Source of the DNA: Erysipelotrichaceae bacterium
Lineage (GTDB): Bacteria > Bacillota_I > Bacilli_A > Erysipelotrichales > Erysipelotrichaceae
NCBI GenBank assembly: GCA_029101345.1
Contig: JAQXQU010000115.1
Span: 1-36,782 of the forward strand
DNA: 36,782 bases
Direction of reading: 5' to 3'
The translations under genes and the position numbers were made by a program. The first letter of the stretch is position 1. Every line of letters begins with the position of its first letter. Of this stretch, positions 3,220 to 35,268 are shown one piece after another. The notes under the pieces are model-generated. The model was not told the DNA's origin. It made no database searches and was given only the letters and a program-made list of their open reading frames with translations.

Positions 3220-3659
3220 TTCTTTTTCCTGACTTGTTTCTGCTTGCCTTTGGCATATAAGCCAAGAAGCCTTTCAATCTTGTTTTTGCTGAAACACTCA
3301 ATACGCTGGGTAGAACCATCTACCAGTTCGATGACTACTTCATCCTCCAGAAAACCATTGATATATGACCATGATTCAATATCTTCATAATAGATGAGAA
3401 TGCAATTTGACTGATTGGCCTTGTTGAAAAGGATAACATAATCAGTCGTAAATTCCATGAGCACCCTTCTGGGAAGAAAAGCAAGGCAGCCAAAGCCCAT
3501 GAAAATCAATGAAATTCCATACATCCTATTAAAGAAAAAGACCAGGACAAAGCCAATAATCAAAGCAAGAAAGATCAGAAAATACGGCTTGGCTTCAATA
3601 CTGCCAACCAGAATTCGATCAGATGGCAGGTTGTATTGCTTAAGTTCTTTTGTCTTCAT
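3216..3659 (-). CDS. Small membrane protein with two transmembrane segments, function unknown
   Basis: A 147-residue protein I do not recognise. A short hydrophilic N-terminus is followed by two closely spaced hydrophobic helices at about residues 27-44 and 48-62. A soluble C-terminal part of about 80 residues follows (beta-rich, VILFNKANQ...EDIESWSYINGF...VVIELVDGSTQRI) and ends in a very basic tail KQKQVRKKK. The arrangement resembles bacterial PH-like or YcxB-type membrane proteins, but this is only a shape argument. It is co-transcribed with the DnaQ-like exonuclease through an ATGA overlap. There is no Shine-Dalgarno sequence. An extended -10 ends 6 nt before the ATG, so a leaderless mRNA is predicted. 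Confidence 0.7.
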   Translation of the reverse strand: MKTKELKQYNLPSDRILVGSIEAKPYFLIFLALIIGFVLVFFFNRMYGISLIFMGFGCLAFLPRRVLMEFTTDYVILFNKANQSNCILIYYEDIESWSYINGFLEDEVVIELVDGSTQRIECFSKNKIERLLGLYAKGKQKQVRKKK

Positions 3660-21702: not shown

Positions 21703-21728
21703 GAAAAGCCTCCAAAGGGAGGCTTTTC
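21703..21728 (-). terminator. Strong palindromic hairpin upstream of glgC
   Basis: An 11-bp perfect stem (GAAAAGCCTCC/GGAGGCTTTTC) with a 4-nt loop. On the minus strand it lies downstream of the structured RNA candidate at 21761-21813 and upstream of the glgC promoter. It could terminate a short transcript there. Orientation is not certain, because the T-run is contained in the stem. Confidence 0.5.
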
Positions 21729-21750
21729 AGTATTATTTGATCTTTATAAA

Positions 21751-21820
21751 GGGGGATATGCGACGCAGTAAGTGTAGGGAATCAGCGTCGGCAGGTTTCC
21801 TTACCTGCACTTATATAGTA
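21751..21820. ncRNA. Candidate structured RNA with pseudoknot and kissing loop
   Basis: Stem A, CGACGC/GCGTCG (21761-21766, 21785-21790), abuts stem B, GCAGGT/ACCTGC (21791-21796, 21803-21808). TAAGT in the loop of A (2169-style positions 21769-21773) can pair with ACTTA just after B (21809-21813) to form a pseudoknot. AGGGAA in loop A (21776-21781) can also pair with TTCCTT of loop B (21797-21802), with one G-U pair. I cannot match it to a family I know; fluoride, preQ1, ZTP and SRP consensus motifs do not fit. The strand is unresolved, though a hairpin downstream favours minus. Confidence 0.4.
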
Positions 21821-21875
21821 CACAAACTCTTTCAAATAAATATGTCTCAAATATGTAAAAATGTGTGAATAGCGA

Positions 21876-21884
21876 TGATACAAT
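21876..21884 (+). promoter_or_regulatory. Extended -10 for predicted leaderless transcript of the phosphoesterase gene
   Basis: TGA-TACAAT, then exactly 6 nt (TAAAAC), then the ATG at 21891. No Shine-Dalgarno sequence is present. Confidence 0.65.
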
Positions 21885-21890
21885 TAAAAC

Positions 21891-22715
21891 ATGAAAAAGA
21901 AGACCCCAATTATCATTCTGGCAATCGTTATCACAATCGCTTTGCTTGTGGTGAATGCCATATTCATCAATCCCCACACAACAAAGGTCAGACAGGAAAC
22001 AATCACTTCAAACAAAATAGGAAAAAGCCTTGATAATACACTAATTGCTTATTTCTCTGATCTTAAATATGCTAAGGAAACCCTTGACATCACCACCAGA
22101 GCCATTGACAATATCAATGCTTTCAAACCAGATCTGATTCTCTTTGGCGGCGATCTTTTAAGAACTGACTACAAGTTGACTGAAGAAGAGACCAATATGC
22201 TCATCGAACTTCTTGCTAGTCTCAAGGCACCACTTGGCAAATATGCCGTCCTTGGCGACGAGGATAACCGGGAAGATGTCAGAAAAATCATTGAAGATAG
22301 CGGCTTTGTCATCCTTGATAACAGATCAGTCAAGATTTACAATGGCAGTTCCTATTTGGAGCTGGTTGGACTTGAAAACATGATCAACGGCCAAAAAGAC
22401 CTCGCCAAAGCCTATGCTGATGTCAATAGCGGTTCCTTTATTCTGACTTTGTCCCACTGCCCTGACAGCATTGAAGAAATCTCCTCATATCCAAGCGACT
22501 ATTTCCTGGCTGGCCATAGCTTAGGTGGAAGTATCTATATCCCTATATTCAATTCCTTCTATCGTTTCAAAGGGGCCGAGAAGCACTTCCATGGTTCAGA
22601 TATCATTAATGGCACCTATTTGGAAATCACCAATGGTGTTGGATTAGGCAAATCAAAAGCCCGCTTGTTTGCGGACTCGGAAATTGTCTTATATAAGCTT
22701 AGTTCTGCTTCATAA
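21891..22715 (+). CDS. Membrane-anchored metallophosphoesterase-like protein with altered metal motifs
   Basis: A 274-residue protein with an N-terminal membrane anchor (residues 6-27) and an extracytoplasmic domain of the calcineurin-like phosphoesterase fold, similar in layout to YkuE-type proteins. The five metal motifs are recognisable but changed. DxH is SDLK (Asp57, Lys59), GD is intact (FGGDLL, Asp88), and GNH[DE] is GDED (122-125). The single His is LSHCP (His189), and GHxH is GHSLGG (His209, Leu211). Loss of several metal ligands suggests weak or no hydrolase activity, or a binding role. It lies downstream of a structured RNA candidate and converges on the aminopeptidase P gene, overlapping its end by 17 bp. 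Confidence 0.75.
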   Translation: MKKKTPIIILAIVITIALLVVNAIFINPHTTKVRQETITSNKIGKSLDNTLIAYFSDLKYAKETLDITTRAIDNINAFKPDLILFGGDLLRTDYKLTEEETNMLIELLASLKAPLGKYAVLGDEDNREDVRKIIEDSGFVILDNRSVKIYNGSSYLELVGLENMINGQKDLAKAYADVNSGSFILTLSHCPDSIEEISSYPSDYFLAGHSLGGSIYIPIFNSFYRFKGAEKHFHGSDIINGTYLEITNGVGLGKSKARLFADSEIVLYKLSSAS

Positions 22716-32698: not shown

Positions 32699-35268
32699 TG
32701 TTTCTCTTCCTTTCTGACCATCTGGTAATAGAAGACAAAATTCAGCAATAAGGTAAAGTATAGAGCTGAAAAAGCCAAAACATGACGAATGAAGCGATGA
32801 TTATCAAAACCATTGTTATATGCATTGATGTTTTCATAGCTATCGGCAAAGTCATATTCCTGCAAACTTTTGCGTGCCATGATGGCAAAGATGCCGGTCT
32901 TGTCAGACATGAAATGCACATAGCCATTAGACCATTGCGTATAGCATTTCTCAATGCGTCCTTTTTCAAAATGGTAAACCGCATACTGATAATCCTTGCC
33001 ACCAGCAACCTTGACACTATAGATAAGTGGTGCAATGACTTCAGCCTTTTCATAATTGCAATACAAAGATATATCGATGGCAAACTGATAATCAAAGAAA
33101 TAATCGTCCAGGATATATCTGATCAACTCATCATCAAGCCATCGAGGTTCCCTGGTCCTTAGATAGATGCAGTTCTTGAAGATATTATCATCGGTTTTAG
33201 CAATCGATGAAGCCAGCCCCGATACCGAGATATCATATTCATTGTCATAGATATGGTAGTTGTCATCTGATAGCTGATAGAGATAATCATCCATCAGACG
33301 GATATCCTGAAAAGAGAAATCCTTTCTTTTGCTTATCAGATCATAGACTTCATTCACAGACAATGAGGACGGGTCCTCCAAAAAAGATGCCATCATTTCC
33401 TCTGTATCAGCATTTTCCCTGATGACTAGCGGTGTCTTGATATATAGACCGCAATAGCTGATAACAGCCTCGTCATTATCGATGCTGACCATATCGGAAT
33501 TAATAGGAATGGTCCTTGTCGCCATATTCTCATCTACTACTTCCAAAAAGGCCCTGGAAAGATCGATGATGTCATCTTCAATAACGATTATCGAATCAGA
33601 ACTTAATCTGATTTCATCTATTTTCAGGTATTTGGCCTGATAAGCTGCATCACAGGTGGCAATCTCAACTTCTTTATCAAAGCCAATGAATTCATAGCCT
33701 TCCTTATTAGGTACTGAGGATGAAGGAAGCTGCCCTTCCCTGATCAAATAGCTGCAGTTGCCCTCTCCATTGACAAGACCGCCATCATAATCAAAAGTTA
33801 TTGCATATTGCTTATCACCTTGATGGCCTTCACCAATAAGGTAATCAACATCGCTCTTCAATATATAGCCTTCCGGATAGCTTATGCCGAAGTTTAGGGA
33901 TTGGGTCAGTTTGACCTTATAGGCTTTCTCCTCTTCTTCTAGAACAATGAAACCAAAATCATGAATATTCTTCAAGGAATAGTGGTAATCACTGCATTCG
34001 GGATTGGAATAGACGATCAGACGGTCTGCACTCACAATGGCGATCTTTTCCTTATTCAAATCCCTAAAACCCATTCGGGAGTCAAATTCATAGTATTGGG
34101 CCACCAGCTTTTCACCATAATAGGGATCTCCATTATAGCCAGAGGAAAACCCAGAAACAAGGTTGCCGAAATTGGTTCCAGAATAGCCGGGCTTGAGATA
34201 ATTGTCAAAGGTCGTTGAGACATAATAATGGCTGAAATTTGCGATGGAATCAGCAACAGACTGATAGCCATTGCTTCTTTCGTTTTCATCATCATAAGCT
34301 ATCCCCTGATAAAGGGAGTGATTCTTGAAAGCATTCAGATTTTTGCCATAGGAACTATCAACTATTGCAGTCGCAAAAAGCATGAGGGCATTATTGCCAT
34401 CAGCTTGTTCAACGGTTTTGAAGCAATCACCCATGTCATATAGTTCGGAAACATTGACAACATCGTTGGCTCCATCTTTGCTGGCATCACGATAGCTATC
34501 CATTCGCCTGTCAATATTGAGGGTGTCTTCAATAAAGGAATTGATATCCTGGGCACTATAATTGCTGCTAGAGGCAAAGGGCAGATATTGATAGTAGTTG
34601 TAATAAGGTTCGCTATTGATGGCATTCTGATGGCTGTTCTTGCGATAGTCATCACTCATCAGATAGAAATCCTGATAGAAATAATGGCCATCATAGGATA
34701 AATAATCACCATCTGCTAGACCTTGTGGCGCCTTTCCTAGCAACAATTGGCAATCATGATAAGGTGTTGAAACAGCTGTATTGATAAGATGATAGAGCAT
34801 TCCTTCCTGGACCATATAATAGCTAGCAGAGCTTGAGAGCTTTTCATAAGGAACAAGTTCAACCAATGTCTTGTCAAGATATCCGGTTTCACCTGAAATA
34901 GTGAAATAAGCTGAACCTAAACGGCTTTTAAGGTAGACAGCTTCCAAACCGTTTCCTCCATCAATTGTCCGATTGATGTTATAAATGGTTGAACGATATT
35001 CCTGCTTGCCTTTAAGAACAACATAGCCATATTCCATCTCTTCAACAGCTAAATTCCGGCATAAGACAAGATTATCGTATTGGTCAGCATTTTGATCATA
35101 AGCCAGATAAGCTTCGTATTCGCTTTGGTACTCACCGATTGTCTTGTTGGTCGAAGCATCATAGACAAGATATATGTCAGCTGTCTCTTCACAGTTGATA
35201 TTCTTTACAAACAGCGATGCCAATATCAATGACAGCACAATAAAAAGTACAGTTCTTTTTTGATACAT
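32632..35268 (-). CDS. Large secreted, C-terminally anchored protein with GH73-like and InlB-repeat-like regions
   Basis: An 878-residue surface protein. Residues 1-26 look like a signal peptide or N-terminal anchor, and a helix at about 829-850 is followed by a short basic cytoplasmic tail. Residues about 280-395 resemble glucosaminidase (GH73) domains (NNALMLFATAIVDSSYGKN...NHSLYQGIAYDD...YGEKLVAQYYEFD). The position of the catalytic Glu in the A..ES..G pattern is Asp304. An SH3-like stretch (about 405-475) and an InlB/Flg_new-type repeat (about 488-547, ITFDYDGG...GYEFIGF) follow. It lies just after the EssC-like and ubiquitin-like genes and may be part of their envelope-spanning system. 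Its exact role is unknown. A leaderless promoter is predicted. Confidence 0.7.
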   Translation of the reverse strand: MYQKRTVLFIVLSLILASLFVKNINCEETADIYLVYDASTNKTIGEYQSEYEAYLAYDQNADQYDNLVLCRNLAVEEMEYGYVVLKGKQEYRSTIYNINRTIDGGNGLEAVYLKSRLGSAYFTISGETGYLDKTLVELVPYEKLSSSASYYMVQEGMLYHLINTAVSTPYHDCQLLLGKAPQGLADGDYLSYDGHYFYQDFYLMSDDYRKNSHQNAINSEPYYNYYQYLPFASSSNYSAQDINSFIEDTLNIDRRMDSYRDASKDGANDVVNVSELYDMGDCFKTVEQADGNNALMLFATAIVDSSYGKNLNAFKNHSLYQGIAYDDENERSNGYQSVADSIANFSHYYVSTTFDNYLKPGYSGTNFGNLVSGFSSGYNGDPYYGEKLVAQYYEFDSRMGFRDLNKEKIAIVSADRLIVYSNPECSDYHYSLKNIHDFGFIVLEEEEKAYKVKLTQSLNFGISYPEGYILKSDVDYLIGEGHQGDKQYAITFDYDGGLVNGEGNCSYLIREGQLPSSSVPNKEGYEFIGFDKEVEIATCDAAYQAKYLKIDEIRLSSDSIIVIEDDIIDLSRAFLEVVDENMATRTIPINSDMVSIDNDEAVISYCGLYIKTPLVIRENADTEEMMASFLEDPSSLSVNEVYDLISKRKDFSFQDIRLMDDYLYQLSDDNYHIYDNEYDISVSGLASSIAKTDDNIFKNCIYLRTREPRWLDDELIRYILDDYFFDYQFAIDISLYCNYEKAEVIAPLIYSVKVAGGKDYQYAVYHFEKGRIEKCYTQWSNGYVHFMSDKTGIFAIMARKSLQEYDFADSYENINAYNNGFDNHRFIRHVLAFSALYFTLLLNFVFYYQMVRKEEKQWKDCRKSLQAVDIVQEERLKS

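Follow-up and report, generated by a model that had tools for sequence, protein, structure and literature searches.

Gene, predicted fold and probable membrane anchor

Within the window (the whole stretch of DNA that was analysed, 36,782 nt), an ORF on the forward strand was confirmed at exactly 21891–22715; it is intact and encodes a protein of 274 aa. The gene and the region just upstream contain the following features:

21703–21868, minus strand: conserved RNA-like element, divergent from the gene, with a hairpin (21703–21728), C-rich loops and an AT-rich box (21842–21868)
21879–21884, plus strand: -10-like TACAAT ending 6 nt before the ATG, a probable leaderless promoter (spacing conserved in the genus)
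21891–22715, plus strand: gene for an altered, membrane-anchored, calcineurin-like metallophosphoesterase homologue of 274 aa (from the ORF, the fold and orthologues)
21903–21977, plus strand: hydrophobic N-terminal helix, residues 5–29, a probable signal anchor (helix in the AlphaFold model, preceded by MKKK)

The AlphaFold model of the window protein has a mean pLDDT of 95.0 and a pTM of 0.92. Its nearest solved folds are those of Mre11/SbcD (Z 19.0) and GpdQ (Z 16.9), with about 15% identity to the window protein, and the comparison with 5dny_A (Z 19.0) gave an rmsd of 2.7 over 200 residues. Mre11/SbcD and GpdQ are two-metal enzymes, and the titles of the solved structures name manganese; Asn80 of GpdQ has reportedly been the subject of earlier work. 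A direct search of the window protein sequence against solved structures gave no match at E 1, and a profile built from 52 orthologues matched three SbcD/Mre11 sequences with E-values of 0.0065–0.008.

Profile searches pointed to the same fold. The window protein scored 21.4 bits against PF00149, missing the curated cut-off of 21.5 by one tenth of a bit, and 44 of the 52 members of its orthologue group (A1) matched this profile at E 0.01. The best NCBIfam match was LpxG (NF033458), UDP-2,3-diacylglucosamine diphosphatase, with 110.2 bits against a cut-off of 350 (E 1e-31); this match takes in the anchor region, with the best stretch at residues 12–128, and the LpxG profile was matched by all 52 A1 members at E 1e-5. 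YaeI (PRK11340 / NF008460) matched residues 51–267 (E 1e-20), with a score likewise below the cut-off (74.2 vs 188 bits). Thus, the metallophosphoesterase fold given in the preliminary description is borne out by the model, by the likeness to Mre11 and by the PF00149, LpxG and YaeI profiles. The helix at residues 5–29 and the basic start of the protein fit a probable membrane anchor in the model, and from the topology so predicted the domain probably lies outside the cytoplasm.

Metal-site residues of the window protein

The roles of the ligands were transferred from LpxH (PMC5016852) to window positions 57, 59, 88, 123, 189, 209 and 211, and the usual catalytic His corresponds to position 124. 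In the Pseudomonas LpxH crystal structure, according to PMC5016852, Mn1 is bound by Asp8, His10, Asp41 and His197, and Mn2 by Asp41, Asn79, His114 and His195; the two sites are referred to below as M1 and M2. The corresponding codons, all on the plus strand, are listed here with their conservation among the aligned sequences (rows) of the genus and of the tree described below:

22059–22061, plus strand: Asp57, M1 ligand, retained (31/31 genus rows, 127/128 tree rows)
22065–22067, plus strand: Lys59, replacing the M1 His of DxH (His kept in 6/31 genus rows)
22152–22154, plus strand: Asp88, bridging / M2 ligand, retained (31/31 genus rows, 126/128 tree rows)
22257–22265, plus strand: Asp123-Glu124-Asp125, replacing Asn-His-Asp; position 123 (M2 ligand) is acidic, position 124 (catalytic His) is replaced and Asp125 is retained
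22455–22457, plus strand: His189, M2 ligand, retained (31/31 genus rows, 125/128 tree rows)
22515–22517, plus strand: His209, M2 ligand, retained (31/31 genus rows, 124/128 tree rows)
22521–22523, plus strand: Leu211, replacing the M1 His of GHxH (His kept in 3/31 genus rows)

The motifs of the window protein are SDLK (Asp57, Lys59), GGD (Asp88), GDED (residues 122–125), SHCPD (His189) and GHSL (His209, Leu211), and the changes of DxH to DLK, GNHD to GDED and GHxH to GHSL are all as first read. By comparison, L004, L008 and L026, which are canonical and come from the same orthologous group, have DxH, GNHD and either GHSH or AHSH at the aligned positions. In the window protein the seven-ligand set D,H,D,N,H,H,H is incomplete: D57, D88, H189 and H209 are kept, H59 is replaced by K, N123 by D and H211 by L, and Glu124 stands at the usual position of the catalytic His. 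Site M2 (Asp88, Asp123 in place of Asn, His189 and His209) is complete. The earlier wording, that several metal ligands are replaced, is true and can be made more specific: the losses concern the M1 His ligands and the catalytic His, whereas M2 persists with a change of Asn to Asp or Glu.

These residues also set the window protein apart from the characterized families that its sequence resembles. It differs from LpxG in its missing metal ligands, and from YaeI in having neither the M1 His ligands nor the catalytic His. The seven-ligand design of LpxH is common to the canonical orthologues, and LpxH is itself without the usual catalytic His (Arg80); however, according to PMC5016852, LpxH keeps all seven ligands and two Mn, whereas the window protein keeps four ligands unchanged plus the Asn to Asp replacement.

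Distribution and conservation of the altered form

A strong match to the window protein (best E ≤1.1e-19) was found in 57 of 61 genomes, its own included, and 58 had a match at E 0.001. When the search was extended to the class, 92 of 247 genomes gave matches at E 1e-20. Among the best 80 of 282 matches, the named relatives belong to Erysipelotrichaceae and neighbours, namely, Solobacterium MAGs, Bulleidia extructa, Longicatena caecimuris, Amedibacillus dolichus and Merdibacter massiliensis. The protein of Longicatena caecimuris DSM 29481, which is identical to L087, has exactly the set found in the window (Lys59, Asp123, Glu124 and Leu211).

The genus was represented by 31 full-length sequences from 36 genomes, the other five having fragments or no orthologue. 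Altered motifs were found in 28 of the 31 sequences, and the three others are canonical, so an active form exists in the same genus. Asp57, Asp88, Asp125, His189 and His209 are unchanged in 31/31 rows, and the canonical residues at the queried positions are still held in 6 (His59), 3 (Asn123), 5 (His124) and 3 (His211) of the 31. All of the 22 rows of a sister family are non-canonical: here His59 is kept in 8 rows, Asn123 and His124 in one row each and His211 in none, and Asp57, Asp125, His189 and His209 are kept in all 22 and Asp88 in 21. Across the 52 orthologues, the PD after His189, the GG after GHS and Pro218 are invariant or nearly so. Alignment of the homologues thus shows that the changed residues are not confined to the window copy, and, with 28 of 31 genus rows altered and five positions fixed in all 31, the queried motif changes exceed chance.

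Nei–Gojobori dN/dS was 0.02–0.20 in 18 pairs of altered sequences and 0.118 in the one canonical pair; these pairs partly share sequences, some approach saturation (dS reaching 1.87), their frames were taken from stop to stop, with the result that a few upstream codons may be non-coding, and they exclude the window protein, which has no close enough relative. The values for the altered pairs indicate that the altered forms are constrained; that is, purifying selection acts on them elsewhere in the family. The possibility that the gene of the window is a single decayed copy is ruled out by the 28 altered genus rows taken together with the dN/dS of the altered pairs.

A broader form of the same explanation is the neutral decay of a redundant phosphoesterase. 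The alteration of three of five motifs would agree with it, as would the presence of another protein with canonical motifs in the genome: in the own assembly (95% complete, 213 contigs), the sole other match at E 1 is L002, a separate protein with 28% identity over residues 128–221. Against decay stand the low dN/dS of the altered pairs and the strong match in 57/61 genomes, and this explanation, already disfavoured, is regarded as highly improbable. The change is real: a known fold has been modified repeatedly, and the modified forms are under constraint.

Selectivity, order and number of the losses

A tree was computed without the four motif columns from 128 of the 182 distinct proteins, and many of its branches are weak. 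Four fragments (L033, L034, L058 and L059) are omitted, as are 50 of the 57 distinct rows of one search (7 kept), the pattern of which favours G[DE]xD and the list of which holds the best 80 of 282 matches. From the 92 genomes matching in the class-wide search, 30 returned loci and 40 hand-chosen stretches were used. Altered members predominate among the sequences behind the profile, and the sample is therefore no census; distant paralogues are also among the 128 rows (L002, L060–L066, L214 and L218), and L217 is probably misaligned at positions 57–59.

Among the 128 rows, 34 have all seven ligands and His124. Another 11 have Asp or Glu at position 123 and no His124, with both M1 His present; in a further 19, His211 is also gone and His59 is kept; in 46 rows all four are lost, and the remaining 18 are in other states. 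Asn123 is kept in only 2 of the 71 rows without His211. The loss is selective, since 75 of the 78 rows that have lost an M1 His retain all four M2 ligands, which also argues against neutral decay. An M2 residue is missing in five of the 128 rows (L040, L092, L213, L197 and L204), the first three of which have lost an M1 His as well. The other two, L197 and L204, belong to one genus (g26) and represent the mirror image: both M1 His are kept, His189 is replaced by Tyr and His209 by Lys.

At position 123, N, D or E is present in 127/128 rows. In the 87 rows without His124, it is D in 53, E in 28, N in 5 and K in 1. Conversely, in the 87 rows with D or E at position 123, position 124 is occupied by E (20), Q (18), K (13), H (6), R (5), N (5), L (4), D (3), Y (3), T (3), S (2), M (2), F (2) or A (1). 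If M2 is still in use and the old hydrolytic mechanism is not, this is the expected pattern: an acidic residue where the amide ligand used to be, beside a drifting position 124. In three other proteins (L196, L198 and L199, family f13) the motif is GNRD, with Arg at the usual position of the catalytic His, as in LpxH.

These counts bear on the explanation that the protein is a pure scaffold, in which the fold would serve for contact with protein, and the role of the M2 residues would be structural, with no metal bound. The metallophosphoesterase fold is used without an enzyme reaction in VPS29 of retromer, a eukaryotic protein with no membrane anchor, which serves here as an analogy only. Purifying selection on both the fold and the sequence would be consistent with a scaffold, but the restriction of position 123 to N, D or E while position 124 drifts suggests metal coordination rather than packing.

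The minimum numbers of changes by parsimony were 14 for N123, 15 for H124, 14 for H211 and 17 for H59, and at the kept positions 2 for H189, 3 for H209, 1 for D57, 2 for D88 and 0 for D125. In constraint tests, the groups for which were defined with the first tree already in view, a single clade of all canonical rows (45-row subset) was rejected (p 0.017), as was a single clade of the canonical rows of the family of the window (p 0.030), but one limited to canonical proteins from the genus and its nearest relatives was not rejected (p 0.259). Sign tests for correlated change gave no significance, with low power (4 independent changes at position 123 on strongly supported branches). The altered form occurs in more than one lineage, and, as far as the tree can tell, more than one origin of the alteration is supported, the exact number not.

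Gene neighbourhood and linkage to RNase J

The gene of the window converges on pepP, an arrangement found in 9 of the 31 genus loci, the window included. In the sister family (L036–L057), the order degV, rnj, altered phosphoesterase gene was observed in 22/22 loci; the start of the gene overlaps the stop of the RNase J gene by 1–4 nt in 21 of them and lies 1 nt after the stop in L049. Outside the genus and the sister family, 18 of 117 further distinct proteins have genes that immediately follow rnj in the same orientation, with a frame gap of -52 to 92 nt. No rnj was found in the genus within the flanks examined, which for most loci extend over about 1.5 kb at most.

The coupling in the sister family would be compatible with a role linked to a second protein, as a scaffold would have; however, the predicted location of the domain (by inference only) is extracellular, and RNase J is intracellular. 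The tie to RNase J is a linkage in part of the group and, given this predicted location, need not mean contact. Taken together with the pattern at positions 123 and 124, we consider a pure scaffold improbable.

Upstream region: probable leaderless start and RNA-like element

The proposed expression of the gene from a leaderless message gained support from comparison. A TAnAAT hexamer whose end lies exactly 6 nt upstream of the start codon is present in 27 of 32 genus loci, compared with a background of 43/4804 ATGs of these loci, and by eye the remaining five have TAnAAT ending 7 nt upstream; the start codons were hand-chosen, that of L025 with the -10 in mind, and thus a slight circularity remains. 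A string resembling a Shine–Dalgarno sequence is also present in 2 of the 32 loci. This spacing of TAnAAT supports a leaderless transcript. A strict -10 test in the window flagged this gene and one other of the 32 genes; by eye, another three resemble them. The other starts with a -10-like hexamer about 6–7 nt upstream and no clear ribosome-binding site are at 35268 (minus strand) and, by eye, at 3659 (minus), 16000 (minus) and 28881 (plus). This suggests that leaderless messages are not rare in this organism, and the leaderless expression of the gene may not be special.

The RNA candidate beside the gene, mentioned in the preliminary description, is a conserved neighbour; it also occurs at sites without the phosphoesterase gene (examples L228, L229, L231, L239 and L222), and is therefore separate from it. 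In two cases (L228 and L229) the element adjoins a tRNA-Pro gene. Features discerned by eye are a hairpin CGATAC/GTATCG with a C-rich loop, a second loop with CCCC and a terminator-like hairpin; an RNAalifold consensus of 27 sequences in a gappy alignment contained one 6-bp hairpin only (GCAAGG/CCTTGC). A search of the whole window against Rfam gave nothing at gathering scores, and sub-threshold matches only (E up to 5), so the element was not assigned to a known RNA family. It looks like an independent small RNA. The conserved box ATGTnnnAATTATGTAAAATTATGTGA was considered as a response-regulator operator and rejected, as it occurs without the gene, at the same end of the RNA element; its distance to the -10 varies (L015, L018 and L027), and it appears to belong to the element.

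Proposed function

Based on the residues that are lost and kept, we propose, with a probability of about 0.55, that the window protein is exported and tethered to the membrane, does not carry out standard two-metal hydrolysis and keeps one metal site for binding or sensing. It would be a relative of the YaeI/LpxG-like metallophosphoesterases in which standard two-metal phosphoester hydrolysis was given up. At M1, His59 and His211 are gone, as is the catalytic His124, and the replacement of Asn123 by Asp or Glu should tighten the holding of metal at M2. The resulting protein would carry a single metal at M2 and bind its ligand without hydrolysing it, most likely in metal-dependent binding or sensing at the cell envelope; the ligand may be a partner protein or, in the old pocket, a phosphorylated molecule of the envelope.

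A case for lost hydrolysis can be made because both M1 His ligands are gone together with the catalytic His; since LpxH is active with Arg at that position, the loss of His124 alone proves nothing. Of the earlier suggestion of a conserved but inactivated or repurposed enzyme, conservation and constraint are established by the genus and sister-family alignments (28/31 and 22/22 rows altered) and by dN/dS; inactivation itself is a proposal.

The chief rival is a single-metal hydrolase, in which M2 would activate water and the carboxylate at position 123, or another residue, would cover for the lost machinery. It would account for the near invariance of the M2 ligands and their neighbours (PD, GG and Pro218) in the 52 orthologues, and precedents can be cited: LpxH functions without the usual catalytic His, according to PMC5016852, and the title of PDB entry 4fbk describes Mre11 with one manganese per active site. 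On the other hand, position 124 and both M1 His positions hold unrelated residues, which are hard to fit to one shared new mechanism, and alanine mutants of Haemophilus LpxH at metal ligands, including His11 of M1, lost much activity (PMC5016852). A single-metal hydrolase thus appears rather unlikely, and binding or sensing through M2 remains the preferred reading.

On a wider scale, it may tentatively be proposed that several lineages of the class independently turned a two-metal exported phosphodiesterase into a one-metal protein by a similar route, in which Asn changed to Asp or Glu along with the loss of the catalytic His and the M1 His pair followed. The product would be a new envelope sensor or a single-metal hydrolase, with its expression tied in one family to that of RNase J by gene overlap.

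In many Solobacterium-related gut bacteria one of two metal sites has been lost and the other retained, which suggests a conserved protein with a role other than the usual reaction, and profile hits alone risk the misannotation of these genes as phosphodiesterases or LpxG-like hydrolases. Among the matches listed in the open-access PMC literature (titles and abstract openings), none was on this family or on the loss of one metal site in bacterial metallophosphoesterases. As related bacteria carry a mixture of canonical and altered orthologues and intermediate states are extant, both the order of the one-site loss and the use of the remaining site are directly testable. Matches were also found in 17 records of a phage collection, every one with less than 60% identity; one of these stretches was examined, without annotation.
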